64,000 bases of DNA from assembly GCA_021816625.1 (NCBI GenBank), contig JAKAXM010000004.1, forward strand, positions 62,001-126,000, in the 5' to 3' direction. Origin of the DNA: Pseudomonadota bacterium (GTDB lineage: Bacteria; Pseudomonadota; Gammaproteobacteria; Acidiferrobacterales; Acidiferrobacteraceae). Under the pieces are notes generated by a model. It ran no database searches. It saw nothing but the letters and a program-made list of their open reading frames with translations, and had not been told where the DNA came from. Shown one piece after another: positions 23,013-36,046 of the stretch (position 1 is its first letter; every line of letters starts with the position of its first letter). Both the position numbers and the translations under genes were made by a program.

Positions 23013-23630
23013 ATGGACCTGATTATGAAAACGGCCCTGCTCTTTGTGATCGGACTTACGGTCCCCGTACTCGCGGGTGCCAAGGGGCTTGCACGCCCCC
23101 CCGCCGTCGCGCACAACGCCGCGATCCTTGCGGGCGCCACTTTGAGCGGAGGTCGGGGCTTGGCCACGATCAACGAGGCATCCGGCCATGGCAACGTGCA
23201 GGCCAACGCCGACGCCATCGCCCAGGGAGGCGCGGCGGTCGCATCGGTCCACCAGCACCTCACCGGCACGGTCGCGGGACTCGCCGCTGACAGCGCCGTG
23301 ATCGGCGGTCAGGCCTTCGCCCGTTTTGCCGGCATCCTGGATATCAATCAGGCGGCTGGGAGTAACAACGCCGAGGCCAATAGCATGACGCTCGCCCGCT
23401 CCCTGCGTCCTTTGAGTCTTAGTGCGCTGACCAGGATCGCGCCGCCCATCCGGGCGGTAAATCACACCCAGGTAAGGTCGGGATCGGCGGGTGCTTCACG
23501 TAGCGTGACGGTATCCCAGGAGGCGCTCAAGGGCGTCACGGGGATCGCCCAAGTGACGCAGGCGGCCGGTTCCGGAAATACCTTGAGCAATAGCGTCACC
23601 GTAAACATATCTGCGGGCATACGTCCGTAG
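23013..23630 (+). CDS. Secreted Fap-like small repeat protein (candidate minor or nucleator subunit)
   Basis: Signal peptide MKTALLFVIGLTVPVLAGAKG; three imperfect repeats GLATINEASGHGNVQANADAIA / GILDINQAAGSNNAEANSMTLA / GIAQVTQAAGSGNTLSNSVTVN. Start taken at 23013 (or 23025) because the ORF-track ATG at 22947 lies inside the predicted promoter. Confidence 0.65.
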   Translation: MDLIMKTALLFVIGLTVPVLAGAKGLARPPAVAHNAAILAGATLSGGRGLATINEASGHGNVQANADAIAQGGAAVASVHQHLTGTVAGLAADSAVIGGQAFARFAGILDINQAAGSNNAEANSMTLARSLRPLSLSALTRIAPPIRAVNHTQVRSGSAGASRSVTVSQEALKGVTGIAQVTQAAGSGNTLSNSVTVNISAGIRP

Positions 23631-23641
23631 GGGTGCAAGAA

Positions 23642-23665
23642 GGCTGGCTTTAGCAGCCGTTTTTT
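23642..23665 (+). terminator. Weak hairpin plus T-tract (candidate attenuator)
   Basis: GGCTG-gctttag-CAGCC-g-TTTTTT between the small repeat gene and the FapC-like gene. Confidence 0.45.
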
Positions 23666-23685: not shown

Positions 23686-25923
23686 ATGGCAATTCAACGG
23701 AAACTCCGCACCATCGTGGTAGCCGTCGGCATGGCGCTCGCGGCCCCCGTGGTCGTGGCCAAGACGACCGGTGTTGCAACCGCGAATGCAAACAGCAGTC
23801 AAATGGCCGGCGGGTCCATTGACTTTGCTCAGGGCACGGTCAATAGCGCTACCGTCAGCAATAACGTCCTGCAAAACGCTAAGGGCAACATAGGCGTGAA
23901 CATCGGTGCCGGTAGCGGCAACATGCAGGGCAACAACACCGATATCGCCTACACCAACGGCTCCCTGACCCGTCATACGAGCGACGTCGCAAGCGTCGCG
24001 AGCATGCAGTGGGGCAATGCCTTCGCCCTGAGCCTCTCCGAAGGCGTCACCAACACCGCAAGCGCCGCCGACAACGTCCTGCAGAACGCCTCCGGCAACA
24101 TCGGCGTAAACGTGGCCTCCGGCAGCGCCAACATGCAGGTGAACAGCACCGCCCTGACCCATAGCAATGGGGTGCTGCCAGGCGGCGTGGCCGATGCCAC
24201 CGCGACGAGCCTCCAGGGGATGGGCCCCTTGGGCCTCGCGGGCACCGAAGGCGATAACGACAGCGCCTCGCTTTCAAACCACGTCCTACAGGATGCCTCC
24301 GGCAATATCGGCGTAAACGTCGCCGCGGGCGATCAGAACATGCAGGGTAACGCGCTTGCGGTCGCCTACAACAATGGCGGCGTGACCGCCTACGCCGGCG
24401 CGGCCAGCATGCAGATGGCCGGATTGATCGGTGCCTTGACAATCGCGGCCGACAACGACGCGACCTTGTCAAACCACGTCCTGCAGAACGCCTCCGGCAA
24501 TATCGGGGTCAACGTCGCAGCCGGTGTGCAGAACATGCAGCACAACGGCCTCTCGGTCGCCACCGCTAATGCCGTGTATCCCTTCTCGCCCACCGTCACG
24601 AGCGGCGCAAGCGTGGCTGCGGTGAACAACGCCCAGTCGGCAGGCGCCCTAGCCGGTAGTCTCAACATGGGTTCCGACAACGACGCGAGCCTCGCAAACC
24701 ACGTCCTGCAGAACGCCTCCGGCAACATCGGCGTAAACGCCGCTGCCGGCACGCAGAACATGCAGTCCAACGGGGTTGCGATGGCGACCGGTCTTACGAC
24801 CGAATCGGCGGGCGCAGCCACGACCACGGTGGGCAACGCCCAGGCCGTCGGACCCTTGGGCGGTTCTTTGAGCCTCGGGGGCGACGATGACGCCTTTCTC
24901 ACCAATGGCGTCCTGCAGAACGCCTCCGGCAATATCGCGGCCAACGTCGCAGCCGGCGCCGACAATATGCAGGCCAATAACGTGGGCTATGCGTTTAACC
25001 ACGCAGGCCAGAGCGCCACGTCTGTGATCGACAACGATCAGGGGACCGAGGGTTTCGATGGGGATGCCGCGCTTTTGTCGCTTACCGCCTACGGCAACGA
25101 CCACGCCTACCTGAACGACCATGTCCTGCAGAACGCCTCCGGCAATATCGGGGTCAACGCCGCCGCCGGTCAATGGAACGGGCAGGCCAATAATCTGGCC
25201 ATAGCCACGGCCGCTGGCGCTGTAAACAGCACCACGACCGCGACGGCCGGCATCGCCGACAACCAGGCGAGCAATATGAGCCTCGAGTGGCTGCCGTCGG
25301 TCGCGTTTAGTGTGAGCGGTGTTATGCGGGCCTCGCTGTCCGACAAGGTCCTGCAGAATGCCTCCGGCAACATCGGCGTAAACGTGGCCTCCGGCGTGCA
25401 GAACGTACAGGCCAACAATACGGCGCTTGCCTTTGGTGATGGTACCGGTACCGGCGACATGGACGGTGACAACACCGGTGGGCCGGCGGTGGCCAGCATT
25501 ACCGGGCGTCAGCTATCGGGACCCTACTCCATGGCCGCGAACATCGGTTCCACGAACAGCGCGAGCGTTGCCAATGACGTGCTGCAAAACGCCGCCGGCA
25601 AGATCGGGGCGAACGTGGCGGCCGGCGTCCAGAACATGCAGAGCAATGATCTGGCCTACGCCTTCAACCAAGCGGGCAGCAATGCCAGCGCGTCGACCGA
25701 GGTCTCGCAGGTATCGTTGGGCGCCATCGCCACGGATCAGCCAGTCAGCTTCTATACGGGCGGCGACATGGACTCCGACAACTCGGTCACCGTGCCTGTG
25801 ACCAACACGGCGGAGGTCTCCAACAACGTCCTGCAGAACGCTTCGGGCGACATCGGGCTAAACGTCGCGGCGGGGGCTGCCAATATGCAGCGCAACACCC
25901 TGACGATCGCGGACGCCGACTAG
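23686..25923 (+). CDS. FapC-like functional amyloid protein with 10 imperfect repeats
   Basis: Signal peptide; motif (N/D)xVLQNASGNIGVNVAAGxxNMQxNx occurs 10 times (starting near 23863, 24075, 24279, 24474, 24700, 24907, 25119, 25345, 25576, 25821). No cysteine found on reading the translation. Confidence 0.85.
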   Translation: MAIQRKLRTIVVAVGMALAAPVVVAKTTGVATANANSSQMAGGSIDFAQGTVNSATVSNNVLQNAKGNIGVNIGAGSGNMQGNNTDIAYTNGSLTRHTSDVASVASMQWGNAFALSLSEGVTNTASAADNVLQNASGNIGVNVASGSANMQVNSTALTHSNGVLPGGVADATATSLQGMGPLGLAGTEGDNDSASLSNHVLQDASGNIGVNVAAGDQNMQGNALAVAYNNGGVTAYAGAASMQMAGLIGALTIAADNDATLSNHVLQNASGNIGVNVAAGVQNMQHNGLSVATANAVYPFSPTVTSGASVAAVNNAQSAGALAGSLNMGSDNDASLANHVLQNASGNIGVNAAAGTQNMQSNGVAMATGLTTESAGAATTTVGNAQAVGPLGGSLSLGGDDDAFLTNGVLQNASGNIAANVAAGADNMQANNVGYAFNHAGQSATSVIDNDQGTEGFDGDAALLSLTAYGNDHAYLNDHVLQNASGNIGVNAAAGQWNGQANNLAIATAAGAVNSTTTATAGIADNQASNMSLEWLPSVAFSVSGVMRASLSDKVLQNASGNIGVNVASGVQNVQANNTALAFGDGTGTGDMDGDNTGGPAVASITGRQLSGPYSMAANIGSTNSASVANDVLQNAAGKIGANVAAGVQNMQSNDLAYAFNQAGSNASASTEVSQVSLGAIATDQPVSFYTGGDMDSDNSVTVPVTNTAEVSNNVLQNASGDIGLNVAAGAANMQRNTLTIADAD

Positions 25924-25934
25924 GCGTTATGGTG

Positions 25935-25967
25935 GCGGGCGGGGGTTCGCCCCCGCCCGCTTTTCTT
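25935..25967 (+). terminator. Strong rho-independent-type terminator hairpin within the amyloid operon
   Basis: GCGGGCGGGGG-TTCG-CCCCCGCCCGC followed by TTTTCTT: 11-bp stem, TTCG loop, T-rich tail. Confidence 0.85.
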
Positions 25968-25986: not shown

Positions 25987-26673
25987 ATGCCGTACCGCCT
26001 GGGGTTATCGCTGCTGGCCCTCGTGCTTATGCCGGGTTTGGCGCGCGCGGGAACGGTCGTGTTCAACGGTTTCGGCGGCGTGCCCATCATGCGGCATGTC
26101 ACCAGTATTCGCGGACTTGAGTTCCGCGGCGTAGTGCGCCAGCGCACCGATTACAGCTGCGGGGCGGCGGCCATCGCGACCATCCTTGATTTCGCCTACG
26201 GACGCCGTCTGTCCGAAGATCAGGTGATCGTGGGGATGCTGAAGGTCAGTAATCGCAAAGTCGTAAAGCAGAAGGGGTTCTCGATGCTGGACATGGCGCG
26301 CTATCTCGCGCGCCTGGGTCTGCACGGGGCTGGCTACAAGATATCGCCGACGCTCTTGCCGAGCCTACGCGTGCCTGTGGTCGTGCTCCTGAACATCAAG
26401 GGTTACGAACACTTCGTCGTGTTAAAGGGCGTGGTCGCGGGCCGCGCCTTTCTCGCGGATCCCGAGTTTGGGAACCGCAGCATGGCCGTGGGGACATTCA
26501 TAAAGGATTGGGACGATGTCGTGTTCATCGTCATGGGTCCGCATTATGACAAGGCCACGCCTTTGCGGGCCCACCTAAAGGCCGTGCGCGTCCATGGTCT
26601 GTTGGCGGCCATGGAACGCAGCGAGACGCGGAATTTGCGGGAATTCGGTTTTATTCCCGCTACCGATTTCTAA
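25987..26673 (+). CDS. Periplasmic C39-family cysteine peptidase (FapD-like)
   Basis: Signal peptide; QRTDYSCGAAAIATILDFAYGRRLSEDQV; KGYEHFVVLKGVVAGRAFLADPEFG. No ABC transporter domain. Confidence 0.85.
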   Translation: MPYRLGLSLLALVLMPGLARAGTVVFNGFGGVPIMRHVTSIRGLEFRGVVRQRTDYSCGAAAIATILDFAYGRRLSEDQVIVGMLKVSNRKVVKQKGFSMLDMARYLARLGLHGAGYKISPTLLPSLRVPVVVLLNIKGYEHFVVLKGVVAGRAFLADPEFGNRSMAVGTFIKDWDDVVFIVMGPHYDKATPLRAHLKAVRVHGLLAAMERSETRNLREFGFIPATDF

Positions 26674-26676
26674 CGA

Positions 26677-27468
26677 TTGTCGAATAGAGGTATGGTCATG
26701 GGTGTAAGGACGGCGAGCGGGAGCAGGTATCTGACCGTGATCACGGTTCTCGGGGTGGCGTGCGCGGTCGCGGTGGCGCAGGCGGGGACCTTGACGAGCC
26801 GCGATGTAGGGGCGGTGATGGGCGCAACGCCCCTGTCGGCCCGCACGCTCGCTACCTTGCGCGGCCGCTACGTGGCGACCGACGGTGTCGTCTACTTCGG
26901 TCTCGAACTCGTAAGCCGCTGGACGCAGGCCAATGGCTCGGGGCTTACCGTTGGTACCAATGTCAATCTCGGTATCCAGGGCGACGGCCGTCCCGCGCTT
27001 ACGGTTGGCAGCTTTGCCCATGAAACCGGCGGCCGCGGCAGCCCGCAAGGTCCTTCCGCTGGCACTATTACGGGTAACCCCATTGCCGGGGTCGATGGCA
27101 TAGGCCAAGGTATACAGACCACTGGCAACGACAATGTCATCAAAAATACCGCCGTGATTAACCTCGGCGCCGGAGCGACCGGGACCTCGGGTCACACCAA
27201 CGGTCCGCGCGACATCTCGGTTGCCACCGCAGGCGGCGAGGGCCAAGTCGCCTTCAACCCAAGCGGCGTTACGATCGCCATCGCGGTTCCTGGCCAAGGC
27301 CTGATTCAACAGACACTAGGCACCCAAGGTCTGGGGCAGAGTGCCCAGGTGCTATCGAGCGCCAATACCGTTTTGAATCAGATGAGTCTGAACGTGGGCT
27401 TCGGTAATGCCGGCGGGTTTTCCGCGGCACAGCTGGGCGCCATCCTGGGGACCTTGAAAGGTCTCTAG
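26677..27468 (+). CDS. Secreted FapE-like protein
   Basis: Signal-like N-term; LATLRGRYVATDGVVYFGLELVSRWTQANG; Gly/Asn/Gln-rich body; position after the C39 peptidase matches fapE in Pseudomonas fapABCDEF. Start could be 26698. Confidence 0.55.
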   Translation: MSNRGMVMGVRTASGSRYLTVITVLGVACAVAVAQAGTLTSRDVGAVMGATPLSARTLATLRGRYVATDGVVYFGLELVSRWTQANGSGLTVGTNVNLGIQGDGRPALTVGSFAHETGGRGSPQGPSAGTITGNPIAGVDGIGQGIQTTGNDNVIKNTAVINLGAGATGTSGHTNGPRDISVATAGGEGQVAFNPSGVTIAIAVPGQGLIQQTLGTQGLGQSAQVLSSANTVLNQMSLNVGFGNAGGFSAAQLGAILGTLKGL

Positions 27469-27552: not shown

Positions 27553-28767
27553 ATGTCGTATCAAGCGGTGGGGGAAGGGATGGCGCAGGTGCCCCGTAGG
27601 GCCCCTGCAGCGCCCGTGCGGTCGCCGGCTCCGGTAATGCTGATCACCGGGACCCGGCCGGACATCATAAAGACAGCGAGCGTCGTTCATGCCCTGGCCC
27701 AGGCGCGATGCGCGTCGTCGGTCGTACACAGCGGGCAGCATGCCGACGGTATCTCCGAGCTCTATCGCTTTTTCGAGCTCGCGCCTGCCGCGAGCATCGA
27801 TCTCGGCCCACGGGGTCCGCAGCTCGCCGATCTCACGGCGCGCCTGCTCGCCGGCCTCGATCCGATTGTGGCGCAGCTACGGCCCGCGATACTGGTCGTG
27901 CAGGGCGATACCACAACGGCCCTGGCCGGCGCCCTGCTCGGTTTCTACCATCGCATCCCGGTGGCCCACATCGAAGCCGGTCTGCGCTCCGGGGACCCGG
28001 GCGAACCTTTTCCGGAGGAGGTCAATCGCCAACTGATAACGCGGCTGGCCGCCTGGCATTTCGCGCCTACGCCGCTTGCCGTCGCCTGCCTGCGTAAGGA
28101 GGGCGTACCCTTGAAAGCGATCACCATGACTGGCAATACGGTCGTGGATGCGGCCTTGTTCGGTTATCGGCGCCTGGCCGCCGGCACCGCCGCGGCGGCC
28201 CCGGCGGTCCGCCGCATCCTCGTCACGGCCCACCGTCGCGAAAACTGGGGCGCTGGGATCGCGGCGATTGGCGCGGGCCTGTGTCAGGTGATCGAGCGGT
28301 TCCCGGATGTCGAAGTCCTCTGGCTACGACACCCCAATCCCGAGGTGGCCGGCGCGGTTGACGCGATTGCGCGCCAGGCGCCGGCCCATGTGCGCGGCCG
28401 TCTTCATATCGCGGCCCCGCTCAGCTATCCCGACATGCTGCAAGCCTTACGGGACGCCTGGCTGGTCGTGACCGACTCTGGGGGGTTACAGGAAGAGGCC
28501 GTGACGGCGCGGGTCCCGGTCCTCATTGCTCGGCGTCAGACCGAGCGACCCGAGGTCGTGCACTGCGGGGCCGGCCACTTGATTGGGGCAGACGCGCGTC
28601 GCCTCGTGACCGAGATCTCCCGTCTCTACCACGCGCCCGACAAATGGGAGGCCATGCGTCCGGCCCAGTCGCCGTTCGGTGACGGCACAGCCGGCCAGCG
28701 GATCGCGACCGTGCTCGCGAGATTCCTGCAGACACGTCCCGCGCGCGGTCGAAGGGCGGCCTCATGA
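27553..28767 (+). CDS. wecB: UDP-N-acetylglucosamine 2-epimerase (non-hydrolysing, WecB-like)
   Basis: PVMLITGTRPDIIKTASVVHAL; VVQGDTTTALAGALLGFYHRIPVAHIEAGLRSGDPGEPFPEEVNRQLITRLAAWHFAPT; TDSGGLQEEAVTARVPVLIAR...TERPE. Confidence 0.9.
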   Translation: MSYQAVGEGMAQVPRRAPAAPVRSPAPVMLITGTRPDIIKTASVVHALAQARCASSVVHSGQHADGISELYRFFELAPAASIDLGPRGPQLADLTARLLAGLDPIVAQLRPAILVVQGDTTTALAGALLGFYHRIPVAHIEAGLRSGDPGEPFPEEVNRQLITRLAAWHFAPTPLAVACLRKEGVPLKAITMTGNTVVDAALFGYRRLAAGTAAAAPAVRRILVTAHRRENWGAGIAAIGAGLCQVIERFPDVEVLWLRHPNPEVAGAVDAIARQAPAHVRGRLHIAAPLSYPDMLQALRDAWLVVTDSGGLQEEAVTARVPVLIARRQTERPEVVHCGAGHLIGADARRLVTEISRLYHAPDKWEAMRPAQSPFGDGTAGQRIATVLARFLQTRPARGRRAAS

Positions 28768-29537
28768 GGCGGATATGGCATACGGCACTGGCCGCCGCCG
28801 GCCTCATGATTGCGCCCTTGGTCGCGTATGCCCATGGGTGGGTGGGCGCCGGTGGATCCTTTTATGCCCTGACCCAGGGCTATGGCCATTTCGAGGGTAT
28901 CTACGCGCGCGGGGTCTTCGGGGAAGGATCCGACACGATCTGGAACTGGGAGGCCGACCACGGACGGATTTTTGGTTATGAAGAAAACTATGGCGTTTTC
29001 GGGGTCACCCAGACGTTCACATCTCGCTGGTACGGATATGCGAGCCTCGCCGCCAGCACCAACTCCGATGTAGTCCCGAGCCAGCGCATCGACGCGAGCC
29101 TCTCGTATAAGGCTTGGCCCGATAAGCGTCTGGTTGCGACCGCGGGCTATACAGGGATTGCCTTTCGCGATGGCCATCGTGACCACGGTTACTGGTTCAA
29201 TGTTACCGGCTATCTGCCGGATCGTTGGGTCGCCATGGCGGGTCACGGCTGGACCTTCAGTGACCCGGGTGCGGTCCTCGCGCAGCGCAGTTTCGTGGCC
29301 GCAGGCTACCAGCACAGTGGACATATGGAGGCCACGGTGCGTTATGGTTGGGGGGCCGAGGCCTATCTGCCGATCGGTCCGCAGCTCGCCCTCGTGGATT
29401 TCCATAGCCATACCCTGGCCTTCACCTGGCGTCAGTGGCTGGGGCGCCATTTTGGCACGGACGTCTATCTGGAGCGCTTCACGAGTCCCTATTACCAGCA
29501 GACGGGAGGAGCGATCGGTGTCTTCTATCATTTCTGA
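28764..29537 (+). CDS. YaiO-like outer membrane beta-barrel protein
   Basis: Signal peptide; alternating aromatic strands; VGAGGSFYALTQGYGHFEGIYARGVFGEGSDTIWNWEADHGRIFGYEENYGVFGVTQTF...GGAIGVFYHF with C-terminal Phe. Confidence 0.65.
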   Translation: MRRIWHTALAAAGLMIAPLVAYAHGWVGAGGSFYALTQGYGHFEGIYARGVFGEGSDTIWNWEADHGRIFGYEENYGVFGVTQTFTSRWYGYASLAASTNSDVVPSQRIDASLSYKAWPDKRLVATAGYTGIAFRDGHRDHGYWFNVTGYLPDRWVAMAGHGWTFSDPGAVLAQRSFVAAGYQHSGHMEATVRYGWGAEAYLPIGPQLALVDFHSHTLAFTWRQWLGRHFGTDVYLERFTSPYYQQTGGAIGVFYHF

Positions 29538-29619
29538 AAAGACCGGCGACATCCAGGAGGCGGCCCGCCGGGCCGGCTGGCGGGGCGGCACCATTCTGGC
29601 TCATCGTGGCTTGCGGATC

Positions 29620-30327
29620 ATGCCACATGAGCATTGGCAGCTGCGGATCTCCCTCCTTCTTGGGCCGGTAGCGGCGCTCGCCGTGCTCGCCGCGATGCCG
29701 CGCGTCATAGTGCCATTTTGGAACGCCGTCGAGCGTCTTTTGTGCGGCGCGCTTACGCCCGCCGTGGCGGTGGTCACCAAGCCCTATACCCTGCCCTGGC
29801 ACATGGTGCTCGCGATCGCGGTGCCACGTCTGGCGGCGGCAGGCCCGGGGCCTGCCGCCTGGCCTGTGGTTATGATACTCGCGGCCCTGGCGCTTTTGAC
29901 AGGCTATCTCTTGCGCCGCCGTTATCTACCCTTGGCGCTCGCGCTCTTTACGCTCGCCATCGTAGTGCTCATCGGGGCGCTTGCGTTTACACCGGTGCTT
30001 GCTCCCTTTCCTTATGTCTTGACCCGCTATACCCAGTCCATGCTGCTCATGGGGCTTGTGCTCATGTTCGTGACCCCCCTCATGCTCATGGTGATCTATT
30101 ATCCGCTCGATTTCAGTTTCCCAAAGAAGCTCGTCTTGACCGCCCTGTGCGTGGTGTGGCTGGCCGTGGCGCTGCCTTGCCAGTACTGTCTACAGGCCGT
30201 GGTGGTACACGATCTCGGCCTCATGGCCTTGCCCACCCTGTTTCTACTCACCGGTCTTTTGCTGGACATCATGGGGCTCGTCGCCCTCTATTCCTGGGGC
30301 ATGAGCTGGAGGTTGCGCGATGAATGA
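29620..30327 (+). CDS. Polytopic membrane protein of unknown function in an EPS module (possible GTG start at 29518)
   Basis: In-frame MPHEHWQLRISLLLGPVAALAVLAAMPRVIVPFW... with several predicted TM segments; coupled to the next gene (ATGA overlap). Confidence 0.7.
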   Translation: MPHEHWQLRISLLLGPVAALAVLAAMPRVIVPFWNAVERLLCGALTPAVAVVTKPYTLPWHMVLAIAVPRLAAAGPGPAAWPVVMILAALALLTGYLLRRRYLPLALALFTLAIVVLIGALAFTPVLAPFPYVLTRYTQSMLLMGLVLMFVTPLMLMVIYYPLDFSFPKKLVLTALCVVWLAVALPCQYCLQAVVVHDLGLMALPTLFLLTGLLLDIMGLVALYSWGMSWRLRDE

Positions 30328-31657
30328 CCAGGTTCACCATCTGGCGCCGGCGCTCGCGGCCCACGCAAGATTGATCGCAGTTTTGCAGCCGGTGGCCATC
30401 GTCATTATCGTATTTGTATTGATCTATGCCGTGCGCCATCTGTTCTTTACTTTGAATCGGCTGTTCGGTAGGCAGCGGCACCCCTATATCAACATTACCC
30501 AGGCCGATTGGCCTCCCGCCACCATCGTCATCCCCGCCCACAACGAGCAACAGGTCATAGCGCAGATCCTCGAGCGGGTGGTCAACGTTGACTATCCGCG
30601 CGACCGCCTCGCCATCGTCTGTATCGACGACCGGTCCACGGACGCGACACCCACCCTGCTCGATCGGTTCGCCGCCCGTTTTCCTGGCCGCGTAACGGTC
30701 ATACATCGTCCCGCCGACGCCTTGCCCGGCAAAGCAGCGGCCTTGGTCGATGCGACTGATATCATAACGAGCGATATAGCGCTCATATTCGACGCCGACT
30801 ATCTACCCGGGCCCGGTCTTGTGAAGCAACTCGTCGCCCCTTTCTTCGATCCCGAGGTGGGGGGTGTGATGGGGCGCGTCGTTCCGTTCAACAGCGACAG
30901 CAATCTGCTCACCCACCTGCTCGAATTGGAGCGGGCCGGTGGCTATCAGGTCGATCAGCAAGCGCGCTCGAACCTGCGCCTCATCCCGCAGTTCGGCGGC
31001 ACGGTAGGTGGCGTCCGCATGACGGCCTTGCGGCAAGTGGGCGGTTGGAATCCCTATGCGCTCGCCGAAGATACGGACATCACCTATCGTCTGGCGATCG
31101 CCGGCTGGAAGATCGCCTATCAGAATCGTTCCGAATGTTACGAGGAAGTGGTCGAGACCTGGCAAGCCCGTTACCGCCAGCTCCTGCGCTGGTCACGCGG
31201 GCATAATCAGGTATTTTTCCGCCATGGACTTGCCCTGCTGCGCTCTCCTCATATGACGCGCCGCCAGCGCTGGGACGGGGCGATGCTACTTGGCATCTAT
31301 GCTATGGCGCCTGTGTTGCTCACCGGCTGGCTTGTCTTGTACCTCTTGTGGCTCTGTGGGGATAACGGCAGCGGCTTACTGCTCATGCTCGCAGTCGTGA
31401 GTTACGGCACCTTCGGCAACGCCGCGGCCTTCTACGAGATCGCAACGGCTTTGCGTCTCGACGGCGAGCGGCAAAAGGTCAAAGGCGTGCCGCTCATACT
31501 CGTCGGGTTTTTCGTATCGACGTACGCGGCCACAGCTGGCTTTCTTGCGGCCTTGGGGGACGTCCTGCGGCCCGGACGAGTCAACTGGACCAAGACGCCC
31601 CGCTACCGTGCACCCAGCGGCCAATCCGGCGGCGCGACCGCCCCGACACGTCCCTAA
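30320..31657 (+). CDS. Processive family 2 glycosyltransferase (exopolysaccharide synthase-like)
   Basis: TIVIPAHNEQQVIAQILERV; CIDDRSTDATP; LIFDADYLPGPG (DxD); ALAEDTDITYRL (ED); RQLLRWSRGHNQ (QxxRW); N- and C-terminal TM segments. Confidence 0.9.
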   Translation: MNDQVHHLAPALAAHARLIAVLQPVAIVIIVFVLIYAVRHLFFTLNRLFGRQRHPYINITQADWPPATIVIPAHNEQQVIAQILERVVNVDYPRDRLAIVCIDDRSTDATPTLLDRFAARFPGRVTVIHRPADALPGKAAALVDATDIITSDIALIFDADYLPGPGLVKQLVAPFFDPEVGGVMGRVVPFNSDSNLLTHLLELERAGGYQVDQQARSNLRLIPQFGGTVGGVRMTALRQVGGWNPYALAEDTDITYRLAIAGWKIAYQNRSECYEEVVETWQARYRQLLRWSRGHNQVFFRHGLALLRSPHMTRRQRWDGAMLLGIYAMAPVLLTGWLVLYLLWLCGDNGSGLLLMLAVVSYGTFGNAAAFYEIATALRLDGERQKVKGVPLILVGFFVSTYAATAGFLAALGDVLRPGRVNWTKTPRYRAPSGQSGGATAPTRP

Positions 31658-31666
31658 GGAGATCTC

Positions 31667-32629
31667 GTGCTGATCTTGCTCCTTATTACCACCGCGCTCT
31701 TTGCCTTACCCCTGGCCCCAACCGCCGGCCTCTTCCTATGGCGGCGCCATGCCTTGGGCCCGCCGCAACTCTCCGAGGGGGCCTATACCCCCGACCACTT
31801 TGCGCGCACCCTCATAGGCAAGCTGCGCAGTCATTTACCTATTCTTGACGGCGCGCGCCCCCTTATCCAAGAACATCGTCTCGACGGCGAACCTTTGCTC
31901 GTCGTTCCGTCGACTGTGCACCGGATCGGATCAGATTGCATCAAAACGATGACCTACGCGCTTGGCGATATCACGCTCCCGGCGTCGCTGTCGTTCAAAA
32001 AGGAAGTCGCGGCAGAAGGTTCATTGCGATCCGGAGAAAACGGCCGTTATCGCGTGCTTTATTCTGCCGATATCTTGCATCTCGCCAAAAATTCCACGAT
32101 CATTCGCTGGTGCCACGCGGGTCGACAGCTCGTCATAGACGGTGGCGCGCAGATATTGGGGCGAGCCACTGCGAATGTACGGATGATCGTGGCGGCGCCC
32201 TGCATGTTCACATCCCTGACCGCCCCGGAGATCGTTATCGGCGACGGCGGGGAGGCACTGCCCGCGGAGGCCGGGGCCGGCGCGTTGGAGGTTTGGGTGG
32301 AGGAGGAGCGGGTTGTGCAGGGCGACCTCGCCCTGCCGGCCAACAGTCGTCACCGGGGATCCCTCAAGGCGCACGGTCGGCTACTCATCGGGGCCGACAG
32401 CATCGTGACAGGCGGACTTGTCTGTGACGGCGACATCTCGATAGGGCCGCGGTGCCGGATATGGGGTCCAGTGGTCGCCGACGGTGCGATAGAGATAGCC
32501 GGCGGCTGCGTCATCGGACGGCCAGGACGGCCGGCCTCGGTCGCCGGGGCGTCTGTCAGCGTGGTGACGCCGGGGCTTGTGTACGGCGCCGTGCACGCGA
32601 GTCATAGCGGCATAATATCTAATACATAA
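31667..32629 (+). CDS. Membrane-anchored bactofilin-like / polymer-forming beta-repeat protein
   Basis: N-terminal TM LILLLITTALFALPLAPTAGLFLWRR; C-terminal beta-helix pattern GSLKAHGRLLIGADSIVTGGLVCDGDISIGPRCRIWGPVVADGAIEIAGGCVIG. Confidence 0.6.
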   Translation: MLILLLITTALFALPLAPTAGLFLWRRHALGPPQLSEGAYTPDHFARTLIGKLRSHLPILDGARPLIQEHRLDGEPLLVVPSTVHRIGSDCIKTMTYALGDITLPASLSFKKEVAAEGSLRSGENGRYRVLYSADILHLAKNSTIIRWCHAGRQLVIDGGAQILGRATANVRMIVAAPCMFTSLTAPEIVIGDGGEALPAEAGAGALEVWVEEERVVQGDLALPANSRHRGSLKAHGRLLIGADSIVTGGLVCDGDISIGPRCRIWGPVVADGAIEIAGGCVIGRPGRPASVAGASVSVVTPGLVYGAVHASHSGIISNT

Positions 32630-32707: not shown

Positions 32708-33772
32708 GTGCGCCCATGGCCTTATCGCACTGCCTCGGTGGCCCTGCTGCTGACGGGCGTCTTCGGGCGACCCGTCGTTGCGCATGCCGCCACGGCCCTC
32801 GGGGTGGAACATAAGCCCGGAACCCAGGAAAGCGTACAGGCGGTGTATCGCCAGCAAAACGCGCTCTTCAAGGCCGGCCAGATCATCCTGCAGCCCGGCG
32901 TGAGCTACGCGTACTCCGATAGCAACGCGCTGACCTTGAATGGTTTTCTCGCCCTGGGGGCGATCTTTCTCGGTCAGATCAATGTGAGTAAGGTGCAGAG
33001 CAATATCGAGACCTTGTCGCTCCAGGCGAGCTACGCGCCGACCAATCGGATGGAGTTGTCGGCGACCGTGCCCTATCTCGCGCGCCAGAGCAGCTACGAG
33101 TCCGTGGGCGTCAATGGGTCCAGCCTGCAGGCGAGCCAACAGGACGTAACCAACAAAGGCCAGATCGGCGACGCGAGCGTCGCCCTCTACTACCAGCTCG
33201 CCGGGGATAGCCGCGGTGGGGCAACGATCTGGAATTTGACCGCCAAAGGCCCAACGGGACGCAGCCCCTATGGCATCCCGGTGGTGACGCAGCCGCAAAA
33301 CAACAACCTAAGTTACCCGACATCGCTGCCGACCGGCAACGGCGTGTGGGCCGTTTCGACGGGCTTGTCGTTCATTCAGTCGCTAAGCCCGGCCATTCTG
33401 TTCGGAAGCCTGAGCTATACCTACAACATACCGCGGAATTTCGGGAATATATCGAGTACGACGACCCCGCAGTCCGGTGCCGTCGCGCCCGGCAACTCGT
33501 TTAGCTTAGGAGGCGGCACGGCCTTCGCCTTGAACCAGCGAATAAGCCTTACGCTGTCCATGGATGAGACCTTTATCGCGGCGACCCAGATCAAACCGCA
33601 GGGTGGAAGCTGGCAGACGGTGGTCGGCAGTAGCGGCAACGCCGCGGTTTTAAATCTCGGACTGTCCTATGCCCGCAGCCGTCATGTGACGATCGTGACG
33701 AATCTTGCGGTCGGCCTTACCAAAGATGCCCCGAACATCGATCTTAGCTTCACTATGCCGACGTCGTTCTAG
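32708..33772 (+). CDS. FapF-like outer membrane beta-barrel (amyloid secretion porin candidate)
   Basis: ILQPGVSYAYSDSNALTLNGFLALGAIFLGQINVSKVQSNIETLSLQASYAPTNRMELSATVPYLARQSSY; LTAKGPTGRSPYGI; LPTGNGVWAVSTGLSFIQSLSPAILFGSLSYTYN; C-terminal Phe. Confidence 0.7.
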   Translation: MRPWPYRTASVALLLTGVFGRPVVAHAATALGVEHKPGTQESVQAVYRQQNALFKAGQIILQPGVSYAYSDSNALTLNGFLALGAIFLGQINVSKVQSNIETLSLQASYAPTNRMELSATVPYLARQSSYESVGVNGSSLQASQQDVTNKGQIGDASVALYYQLAGDSRGGATIWNLTAKGPTGRSPYGIPVVTQPQNNNLSYPTSLPTGNGVWAVSTGLSFIQSLSPAILFGSLSYTYNIPRNFGNISSTTTPQSGAVAPGNSFSLGGGTAFALNQRISLTLSMDETFIAATQIKPQGGSWQTVVGSSGNAAVLNLGLSYARSRHVTIVTNLAVGLTKDAPNIDLSFTMPTSF

Positions 33773-33798: not shown

Positions 33799-35214
33799 GT
33801 GGCGGCAGAAGAGGTTAAGTACAGCACAGAGAACTTCGGTTTTCGCGGGGCCGCCGTTACGGAGCCGCGTTCGCTGCTCGTCTACTGTCCGACTAAGGCC
33901 CTGCCCTTTCAGGAGGGCGATCTCACGAGCCGGGGCTGGAACGTGACGCGCGTCAATACCTGGGCGGCGGCCCGCGCGCAGGTGGATCGCATGGGTGGGG
34001 GGGTGGGTGTCGTCTGCCTAGGGGACCTCAAGGATCGGGAAGTGGCCGATGCCGAGGCCCTGCTCGGCTATGCCGATAGCCGCTTTCGTTGGATCGCGAT
34101 CGCCGATCTCGCCTTCCTAAAGAGCGCGGTTGCCAATCACCTGATCAGCGAGTGTTGCCTGGATTTCCATATGGTGCCGGTCGATGTCCCGCGGCTTTTG
34201 CACAGCCTCGGGCATGCGCTTGGTATGGCCAATCTGAGCCGCCAGCGGGCCCGCGCACCCGCCGAGAACCGGTTCGAGAAGAACATTGTCGGCAATAGCC
34301 AGGCCATGAAGGCCACCTTTCTGCGTATCACCAAGATCAGCCAGTCCGATGCCCCGGTCTTGATCCAAGGTGAGACCGGTACGGGCAAGGAATTGTGCGC
34401 GCTCGCCATCCACGCCCATTCGGTCCGCGCAACGCGGCCCTTTGTCGCGGTCAATTGCGGCGCGCTTCCCGACAAGCTGATACAGTCCGAGCTCTTCGGG
34501 CATGAAAAGGGCGCCTTTACAGGCGCGCACCAGCGCAAGATCGGACGCATCGAGGCCGCCGAAGGCGGAACGCTGTTTTTAGATGAGATCGGGGATTTGT
34601 CCCTGGACCTCCAGGTCAATTTGCTGCGGGTATTGCAGGATGGGACCTACGAGCGCGTGGGGGGCACGGAGACGCAGCGCGCTGACATCCGTGTCATCGC
34701 CGCGACCCATGTCAATATCGAGAGGGCGGTCGAGGAGAAGCGGTTTCGCGAGGACCTTTATTATCGGCTGAACGTCTTGAATCTCGAGGTCCCCCCGCTG
34801 CGCTCCCGCGAGGGTGATGTCACAGTCCTCGCGCGCCACTGGTTCGACGTCTTTGCCGCAGAAAAAAACCCACAGGTGCGCGGCTTTAGCCGCGATGCCT
34901 TCGTGGCGCTCAGCCAACATCAGTGGCCCGGTAATGTGCGCGAACTCATCAATCGTGTGCGGCGCGCGATGGTCATGTGCGAATACCCGTTGATAGGCCC
35001 CGAGGATCTGGGGCTCGCGTACACGGGTTCCTATCGCGACGTCCCGGTCGAGGAGACGCTAATGGAGGCGCGCGAACGGGCCGAGCGGGAGGCGATCACG
35101 GGCGCCGTCGAAAAGAGCGGCGGCAATCTATCGCGCGCGGCGCGGGCCCTTGGCGTATCGCGCGTCACACTCTATCGTCTGCTCGACAAATACCAGATCC
35201 CCCATCGCGTCTGA
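33799..35214 (+). CDS. Sigma-54-dependent Fis-family activator with VpsR-like N-terminal domain
   Basis: AAA+ Walker A GETGTGKE; GAFTGA loop (GHEKGAFTGAHQRKIGRIE); GGTLFLDEIGDLSLDLQ; C-term Fis HTH NLSRAARALGVSRVTLYRLLDKYQI. Confidence 0.9.
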   Translation: MAAEEVKYSTENFGFRGAAVTEPRSLLVYCPTKALPFQEGDLTSRGWNVTRVNTWAAARAQVDRMGGGVGVVCLGDLKDREVADAEALLGYADSRFRWIAIADLAFLKSAVANHLISECCLDFHMVPVDVPRLLHSLGHALGMANLSRQRARAPAENRFEKNIVGNSQAMKATFLRITKISQSDAPVLIQGETGTGKELCALAIHAHSVRATRPFVAVNCGALPDKLIQSELFGHEKGAFTGAHQRKIGRIEAAEGGTLFLDEIGDLSLDLQVNLLRVLQDGTYERVGGTETQRADIRVIAATHVNIERAVEEKRFREDLYYRLNVLNLEVPPLRSREGDVTVLARHWFDVFAAEKNPQVRGFSRDAFVALSQHQWPGNVRELINRVRRAMVMCEYPLIGPEDLGLAYTGSYRDVPVEETLMEARERAEREAITGAVEKSGGNLSRAARALGVSRVTLYRLLDKYQIPHRV

Positions 35215-35236: not shown

Positions 35237-36046
35237 CTAGAAGCCCACCATGACGTGCAATAGCTTCCGGTAGGGAAGGTAGGCCTGGTCTTGGACCGCC
35301 ACCAGGGATTTGTGTCCGAACATGTCACGTAAGGGCTTGGTTGCCGCCAGGCCCGCGGGGCTTAGGAGCGCCTGCACGATCTTTTGGCGCAAGGCCCGGG
35401 GTACGCGTGCATTGATCGAAAATCCTTGATTGGGGATGCCCGGGGCCCGATAGGCGATGGTGAGCGCCCCCGGGGAGCGCGCCGCCTGGCGCTTATAGAC
35501 CGGCAGTGGCTCGAGGGCGCCGACGCAGCCTCCCCCGATGATGTTGTGCGCGGCATCGGCAAAACTGTGGATGATGACATAGTAGGGTTGGCGGGCAGGG
35601 TTCGTAAACCAGCTATCAAGACGCAAGGTAGCGAGATTGGGCGGCGAGAAGGCGCATACGCTATGCCCCACGAGGTCTGTGATCTTGGTGATGGGCGGGC
35701 CGTTCTTTTTGGTGACCAGCACGAAATTGAGATGTCCGGCCAGTGCTACGGCCGCGTGATCATGAAAGTGCGCCACGCGCCAGCCGATGAAGGCGGGGCC
35801 ATCGAAGTAGATGTCGGCCGTATTGGCGCGCACGTCGGCCATATAGCTAAGCCAGTTACTCGTATAGTGAAAGACGATGGATGCGCCCGTCGCTCGCGTC
35901 AGGAAGCGCGCGATCTTCCCATAGACCGCCACCGCCTCGGCTCTATTCGCGCGGGGCGGGCTGATGAAGGTGTAGCTGCCCGTGGCAGCCCAGCTCGGCG
36001 TTGATGCCGACAACCATGCGATCGCAATGATCAGGACCCGTCTCAT
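35237..36046 (-). CDS. PhnD-family phosphate/phosphonate-type periplasmic binding protein
   Basis: Signal peptide; TFISPPRANRAEAVAVYGKIARFLTRATGASIVFHYTSNWLSYMADVRANTADIYFDGPAFIGWR; CAFSPPNLATLRLDSWF. Confidence 0.75.
   Translation of the reverse strand: MRRVLIIAIAWLSASTPSWAATGSYTFISPPRANRAEAVAVYGKIARFLTRATGASIVFHYTSNWLSYMADVRANTADIYFDGPAFIGWRVAHFHDHAAVALAGHLNFVLVTKKNGPPITKITDLVGHSVCAFSPPNLATLRLDSWFTNPARQPYYVIIHSFADAAHNIIGGGCVGALEPLPVYKRQAARSPGALTIAYRAPGIPNQGFSINARVPRALRQKIVQALLSPAGLAATKPLRDMFGHKSLVAVQDQAYLPYRKLLHVMVGF

Follow-up and report, generated by a model that had tools for sequence, protein, structure and literature searches.

A fap locus encoding a ten-repeat FapC and a FapF that lacks the N-terminal coiled coil

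The 64,000-nucleotide stretch analyzed here (the window) carries a fap functional-amyloid locus that very probably operates with a ten-layer FapC, expanded once and then fixed, and with a FapF exporter lacking the coiled coil. The coil-less pore is the most surprising result. Also new is a ten-repeat FapC that is fixed within a single clade, with position-specific repeats and near-constant spacing. Both findings merit experiment, whereas the headline features of a first-pass annotation of this DNA are ordinary or already published. We infer that the host is an Acidiferrobacter-type iron- and sulfur-oxidizing acidophile, as the closest relatives of its FapD (73-79% identity) come from an Acidiferrobacter sp. 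and from bins that carry no label beyond Proteobacteria, and rusticyanin is present in the genome bearing this locus.

FapC and its ten repeats

The major amyloid subunit is encoded by fapC at 23686..25923 (+), a 745-residue product with an ATG start, a signal peptide and, as the first-pass annotation had noted, a cysteine count of zero. Its proposed FapC-like identity is borne out by the HMM alignment suggested there, in which it matches the NCBIfam FapC model with E 1.4e-63 and 215.6 bits, above the cut-off of 195. In a phmmer search of PDB sequences it matches the solved FapC fibrils 9u4u (E 1.9e-14) and 9nqd (E 5e-14), and fapB, fapD, fapE and fapF are encoded in the same cluster. Five of the ten scanned proteins gave Fap-family matches (FapB, FapC, FapD, FapE and FapF); only FapC is above its cut-off, the other four falling under the NCBI equivalog cut-offs. 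No curli family appeared among the Pfam and NCBIfam matches of these ten cluster proteins. Reading the product of 23686-25923 as a genuine FapC of a Fap-type biofilm amyloid gene set is well supported by these comparisons.

FapC contains exactly ten Fap repeats of 39 aa each, 65-83 aa from start to start, with a mean pairwise identity of 58%. A search for the minimal published Fap motif, G-x4-N-x3-G-x6-N, gave ten occurrences, against a mean of 0.17 and a maximum of 4 in 2000 shuffles of the protein's own residues. A direct-repeat scan of the DNA returned ten 117-nt copies at intervals of 195-249 nt, with 62-82% identity to the reference copy. Profile and direct-repeat scan place repeats 1 to 5 at 23836..23952, 24046..24162, 24253..24369, 24448..24564 and 24673..24789, and repeats 6 to 10 at 24880..24996, 25093..25209, 25318..25434, 25549..25665 and 25798..25914 (all +). 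The protein ends two residues after repeat 10, with no cysteine tail. The ten motif copies at roughly 65-82 aa originally described were thus correct in count and spacing. The acidic DND-type stretches said to precede the motif were likewise found, at repeats 3-7 (DND/DDD/NDH), but they belong to the 39-aa repeat and not to the linker, filling its positions 1-4, a site at which canonical repeats show a conserved Asn.

Two usual FapC features are absent. Ten repeats replace the usual but not obligatory three, and there is no C-terminal CxxC, a motif usual in Pseudomonas and not defining. Three repeats are found in 94% of FapCs (PMC12392863), and the canonical form given in the first-pass annotation, with a C-terminal CxxC and three repeats, holds for Pseudomonas (PMC12392863, PMC6173800). 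Expanded FapCs were reported in 2013, with 4-8 repeats in Acidithiobacillus and 16 in Vibrio (PMC3792158), and PMC12392863 describes models of FapCs with 4, 6, 8, 10 and 16 repeats in which the core is preserved (the ten-repeat one in its Fig. S8f). Since expanded FapCs are already published, ten repeats are no bar to FapC membership; the number is a known kind of variation, and the "many more amyloid units" of the earlier reading are real (ten) but not new, having been described in other genera (PMC3792158, PMC12392863).

The linkers are short (26-44 aa), as had been remarked, but not distinctively so, being equal to those of the characterized UK4 FapC, whose cryo-EM layers comprise residues 45-96, 110-161 and 173-234 (PMC12392863). 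UK4 layer starts lie 63-65 aa apart, and the spacing in the ten-repeat FapC is much alike. Of three-repeat first linkers, 92% carry a Gln 27-28 residues ahead of the next repeat's anchor Gly (0.35 + 0.57 of 40, a set that takes in some FapB linkers), and in the genus alignment every one of the nine linkers of the ten-repeat FapC has an invariant Gln. As this linker Gln is common to three-repeat first linkers and all nine linkers here, the simplest account would be multiplication of a unit of repeat plus first linker, with loss of the long, variable second linker.

AlphaFold2, run with seven close sequences as input, modeled FapC as one long continuous β stack (pTM 0.81, mean pLDDT 72; the five models spread widely, 52-72). 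Its best PDB match is FapC UK4 and its other weak matches are β-helices. This prediction of stacked repeats, which had been suggested as a check, therefore returned a stack with UK4 FapC on top, yet the match is weak (E 0.09, TM 0.44 by target), so the model is consistent with UK4-type layers and not proof of them. The different fibril geometry once proposed finds no support in the UK4-like spacing and linker type or in a model stack whose best match, weakly, is FapC UK4; more layers per monomer would be the simpler reading.

Ten repeats occur in every complete Acidiferrobacter homolog found, in locus L105 (another genus of the same family) and in L171 (another family). The twelve ten-repeat loci are the one in the window, L096-L105 and L171, and most relatives are metagenome bins; in genome G004 eleven repeat matches were obtained, but they straddle an assembly gap of N, which makes this count unsure. 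Within the genus, repeat i best matches congener repeat i at 10/10 positions (diagonal 77% vs off-diagonal 58%), a correspondence that is gone towards L171. Recent repeat slippage is ruled out by this orthology of position. The spacing vector 70-69-65-75-69-71-75-77-83 is nearly constant across ten-repeat FapCs, and its middle portion, 65-75-69-71, is common even to L171. In the FapF tree all ten-repeat loci form one clade with 100/100 support. On these sequence comparisons, the ten-repeat FapC is an old, fixed form of a single clade (Acidiferrobacteraceae plus one other family) and not a slipping array. Genome G702, from that other family, carries a separate three-repeat FapC (L172) besides its ten-repeat fap locus (L171).

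A survey of fap loci covered 35 distinct three-repeat FapCs, near-duplicates having been merged by hand and mature starts assigned by a simple rule. About 24 of the 35 have no mature cysteine, those of Xanthomonas, Lysobacter and some Pseudomonas among them. CxxC directly after the last repeat was seen in seven three-repeat FapCs, from Pseudomonas or its family and from family f242, and most FapCs that are not from Pseudomonas or one other family lack it. Among ten-repeat homologs, five of twelve have at least one cysteine, which in three Acidiferrobacter homologs lies in linker 9. The absence of cysteine consequently says nothing about acid; the survey supports neither cysteine loss as an acid adaptation nor the suggested cysteine-free design for an oxidizing, acidic or metal-rich setting. 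Two easy misreadings are hereby corrected: a FapC that is cysteine-free and one that is short-linked are both ordinary. Charge does differ, ten-repeat FapCs having 5.7% D+E and 1.9% K+R vs 10.7% and 3.7% in three-repeat FapCs.

Gene layout and the embedded polysaccharide genes

Upstream of fapC lies fapB (23025..23630, +), encoding the minor subunit and proposed nucleator (NCBIfam FapB E 1.9e-23, below cut-off). The protein is about 201 aa long when started at the ATG that precedes its signal peptide, and it has three Fap-like repeats by iterated profile and two by strict motif. Downstream follow fapD (25987..26673, +), a C39-family cysteine peptidase (Pfam Peptidase_C39 7.7e-17; NCBIfam FapD E 1.2e-59, below cut-off) with a candidate Cys-His-Asp triad read in DYSCG, YEHF and ADPEF, and fapE (26677..27468, +), a minor fiber-associated protein (NCBIfam FapE E 5.7e-26, below cut-off). 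No fapA was found in the ~350 nt between an xthA-like gene and fapB; fapA loss is the commonest published deviation of fap operons (PMC3792158 lists fapA absence). In several three-repeat loci (L106, L107, L172 and L174) the usual order is inverted, with fapC ahead of fapB, and L111 (genome G145) has two tandem fapB-fapC-fapD sets on one contig, each with a three-repeat FapC.

The hairpin scan revealed a terminator-like G+C hairpin with a T run in the fapC-fapD gap (25934..25961, +), and a comparable one lies between these genes in 10/10 relatives examined. It may attenuate the transcript or protect its 3' end, and could plausibly yield more fapC than fapD-F message. A weaker hairpin is found at 23642-23658, between fapB and fapC.

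Between fapE and fapF sits an exopolysaccharide set (27553-32629), opened by a wecB-like UDP-GlcNAc 2-epimerase gene (27553..28767, +; TIGR00236 345 bits, above cut-off; synteny). It continues with a YaiO-family outer-membrane β-barrel (28764..29537, +; TIGR04390 119.5 bits, above cut-off) and a multi-spanning membrane protein assigned by synteny (29578..30327, +; 249 codons used, start approximate), which is 61-65% identical within the genus and 41% in L171. A PgaC-like family 2 glycosyltransferase of the polysaccharide synthase type (30320..31657, +; Pfam Glyco_tranf_2_3 3.6e-32; TIGR03937 5.9e-34, below cut-off) and a membrane-anchored protein with a weak bactofilin-like β-helix (31667..32629, +; Pfam Bactofilin E 0.0036, below cut-off) complete it. 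The set occurs in most ten-repeat members, in the genus and in L171. L105 has none of it and L103 the bactofilin-like gene only, which rules out that these genes are obligatory for ten repeats. A literature search on the YaiO/bactofilin polysaccharide set returned nothing useful.

After fapF, a VpsR-domain sigma-54 activator (33799..35214, +; Pfam VpsR 1.2e-21, Sigma54_activat 1.9e-71) is the probable cluster regulator and a fap neighbor in many relatives. In P. fluorescens PF07, fap is under the direct control of BrfA, a c-di-GMP-responsive regulator (PMC13101488). Beyond this gene, reading and synteny place a PhnD-like substrate-binding protein (35240-36046, -) that is kept in several congeners.

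A FapF pore without a coiled coil

The outer-membrane export barrel FapF is encoded at 32708..33772 (+) and has a plug helix but no N-terminal periplasmic coiled coil, as evidenced by NCBIfam, AlphaFold2 and 5o65. It matches the NCBIfam FapF model with E 3.9e-95 over model positions 103-419 only, below cut-off. The AlphaFold2 model has the 12-strand barrel and plug helix of a FapF, with a plug-like helix at residues 39-50 from which the barrel follows directly, and it matches the crystal structure of FapF-β (5o65) with E 3.4e-32 and a TM of 0.92 by target. We class the coil-less protein as a FapF variant on the grounds of barrel, plug, locus and tree.

The trimeric coiled coil is missing from FapF in 12/12 ten-repeat loci, where only 11-28 residues separate signal and plug. 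FapFs of three-repeat loci have 74-144 residues there, with clear heptads, except in L111 and L181, which are likewise without the coil. In this comparison the starts of L085 and L118 were misplaced by the heuristic, the coil being visible in both sequences, and L093-L095, L120-L122 and L127 are more remote relatives that lack a FapC match. Another gene of the cluster might provide a coiled coil in trans, but a simple heptad score over the cluster genes found none.

A coiled coil has been stated for all FapF homologs (PMC6173795), and Pseudomonas FapF-β, truncated to lack this region, did not support secretion (PMC5557850). The latter result sits uneasily with a working coil-less pore: either the plug is gated another way in this lineage or the coil is a requirement of Pseudomonas alone. 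It could also be read as a sign that FapF here is non-functional or partly decayed and the system without export, but barrel and plug share ~78-85% identity within the genus and are intact in the ten-repeat genomes, and the FapC repeats are strongly conserved, so that decay is most improbable. The locus is a natural case against the claim that every FapF has, and needs, a coiled coil. Since this FapF equals the crystal construct and comes with its own FapC, the gating model would become directly testable.

Proposed working, rival readings and known systems

We propose that FapC would be secreted unfolded and that its ten repeats would stack into ten cross-β layers per monomer, giving a fiber with the layer fold of Pseudomonas FapC but roughly three times its number of layers in each subunit. 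FapB would nucleate, FapD process, FapE associate with the fiber and FapF export; naturally reduced to plug helix and barrel, FapF would release its plug without a periplasmic coiled coil. The ten-repeat form probably had a single origin by multiplication of the repeat with its first linker and was then held fixed, and the neighboring polysaccharide may be co-produced with Fap under the VpsR-type regulator. That these features make a distinct Fap subtype, with a ten-layer FapC, a working coil-less FapF and production tied to the embedded polysaccharide synthase, we hold to be as probable as its opposite; if true, plug gating needs a trigger other than the coil. The fixed ten-layer FapC offers a natural comparison for the effect of layer number on nucleation and stability at low pH, with relevance to ore biofilms.

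In the AlphaFold2 model a single chain already forms a long closed β stack, with β-helices among its weak matches, and ten layers might be stable without neighbors, as would suit a surface β-solenoid adhesin built from Fap-like repeats and folding as a monomer without polymerizing. Such an adhesin is very unlikely given that the ORF holds the fapC position beside fapB, fapD, fapE and fapF and scores above the FapC cut-off, that the ten-repeat protein has no anchor domain and that a solenoid-type Greek key is also the fold of the layer in FapC fibrils (PMC12392863). Less readily set aside, though still doubtful, is self-nucleation by the ten repeats with FapB dispensable, an idea raised for expanded FapC (PMC3792158). 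The high repeat number fits it, as expansion has been argued to shorten the lag phase (PMC3792158), but fapB lies beside fapC in every ten-repeat genome examined and encodes three repeats by profile.

Fap proteins have been discussed for acidophile attachment to sulfur ('F. caldus', PMC10853474), and expanded FapCs do occur in acidophiles, namely this genus, Acidithiobacillus (PMC3792158) and G702 with its rusticyanin-like genes. Together with the fewer charged residues of ten-repeat FapCs, this could indicate that FapC lost cysteine and gained repeats in adapting to an oxidizing, acidic, metal-rich niche. We find this hard to credit, because cysteine-free FapCs are the majority of surveyed three-repeat loci, the named neutrophile genera included, three Acidiferrobacter homologs have a cysteine in linker 9, Vibrio, which is not acidophilic, reaches 16 repeats (PMC3792158), and the ten-repeat loci form one clade and hence a single event.

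Among the closest known counterparts of this ten-repeat FapC and coil-less FapF are the proteins of Pseudomonas sp. UK4. The UK4 FapC (9u4u, 9nqd; PMC12392863) shares the motif GN-G-N--AAG--N-Q-N, the ~65 aa layer spacing, the short linkers, the first-linker Gln and the place of the major subunit after fapB, but has three repeats and a C-terminal CxxC where the FapC described here has ten repeats and no CxxC. The UK4 FapF (5o65; PMC5557850, PMC6173795) has in common the 12-strand barrel, the plug helix and PTG motifs, with 35% identity over the barrel; it carries an N-terminal coiled coil and linker, whereas the FapF here has neither and is the natural counterpart of the crystal construct FapF-β. 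Acidithiobacillus and Vibrio also show repeat expansion inside fap loci, with absence of fapA and a fapF set apart among the deviations listed (PMC3792158). Their FapCs have 4-8 and 16 repeats, respectively, in contrast to a number fixed at ten in a single clade, and Acidithiobacillus FapB was reported with two repeats (PMC3792158) against three by profile here. Finally, curli CsgA is likewise a secreted functional amyloid of stacked imperfect repeats in variable number, although its repeats are unrelated in length and sequence to those of FapC.
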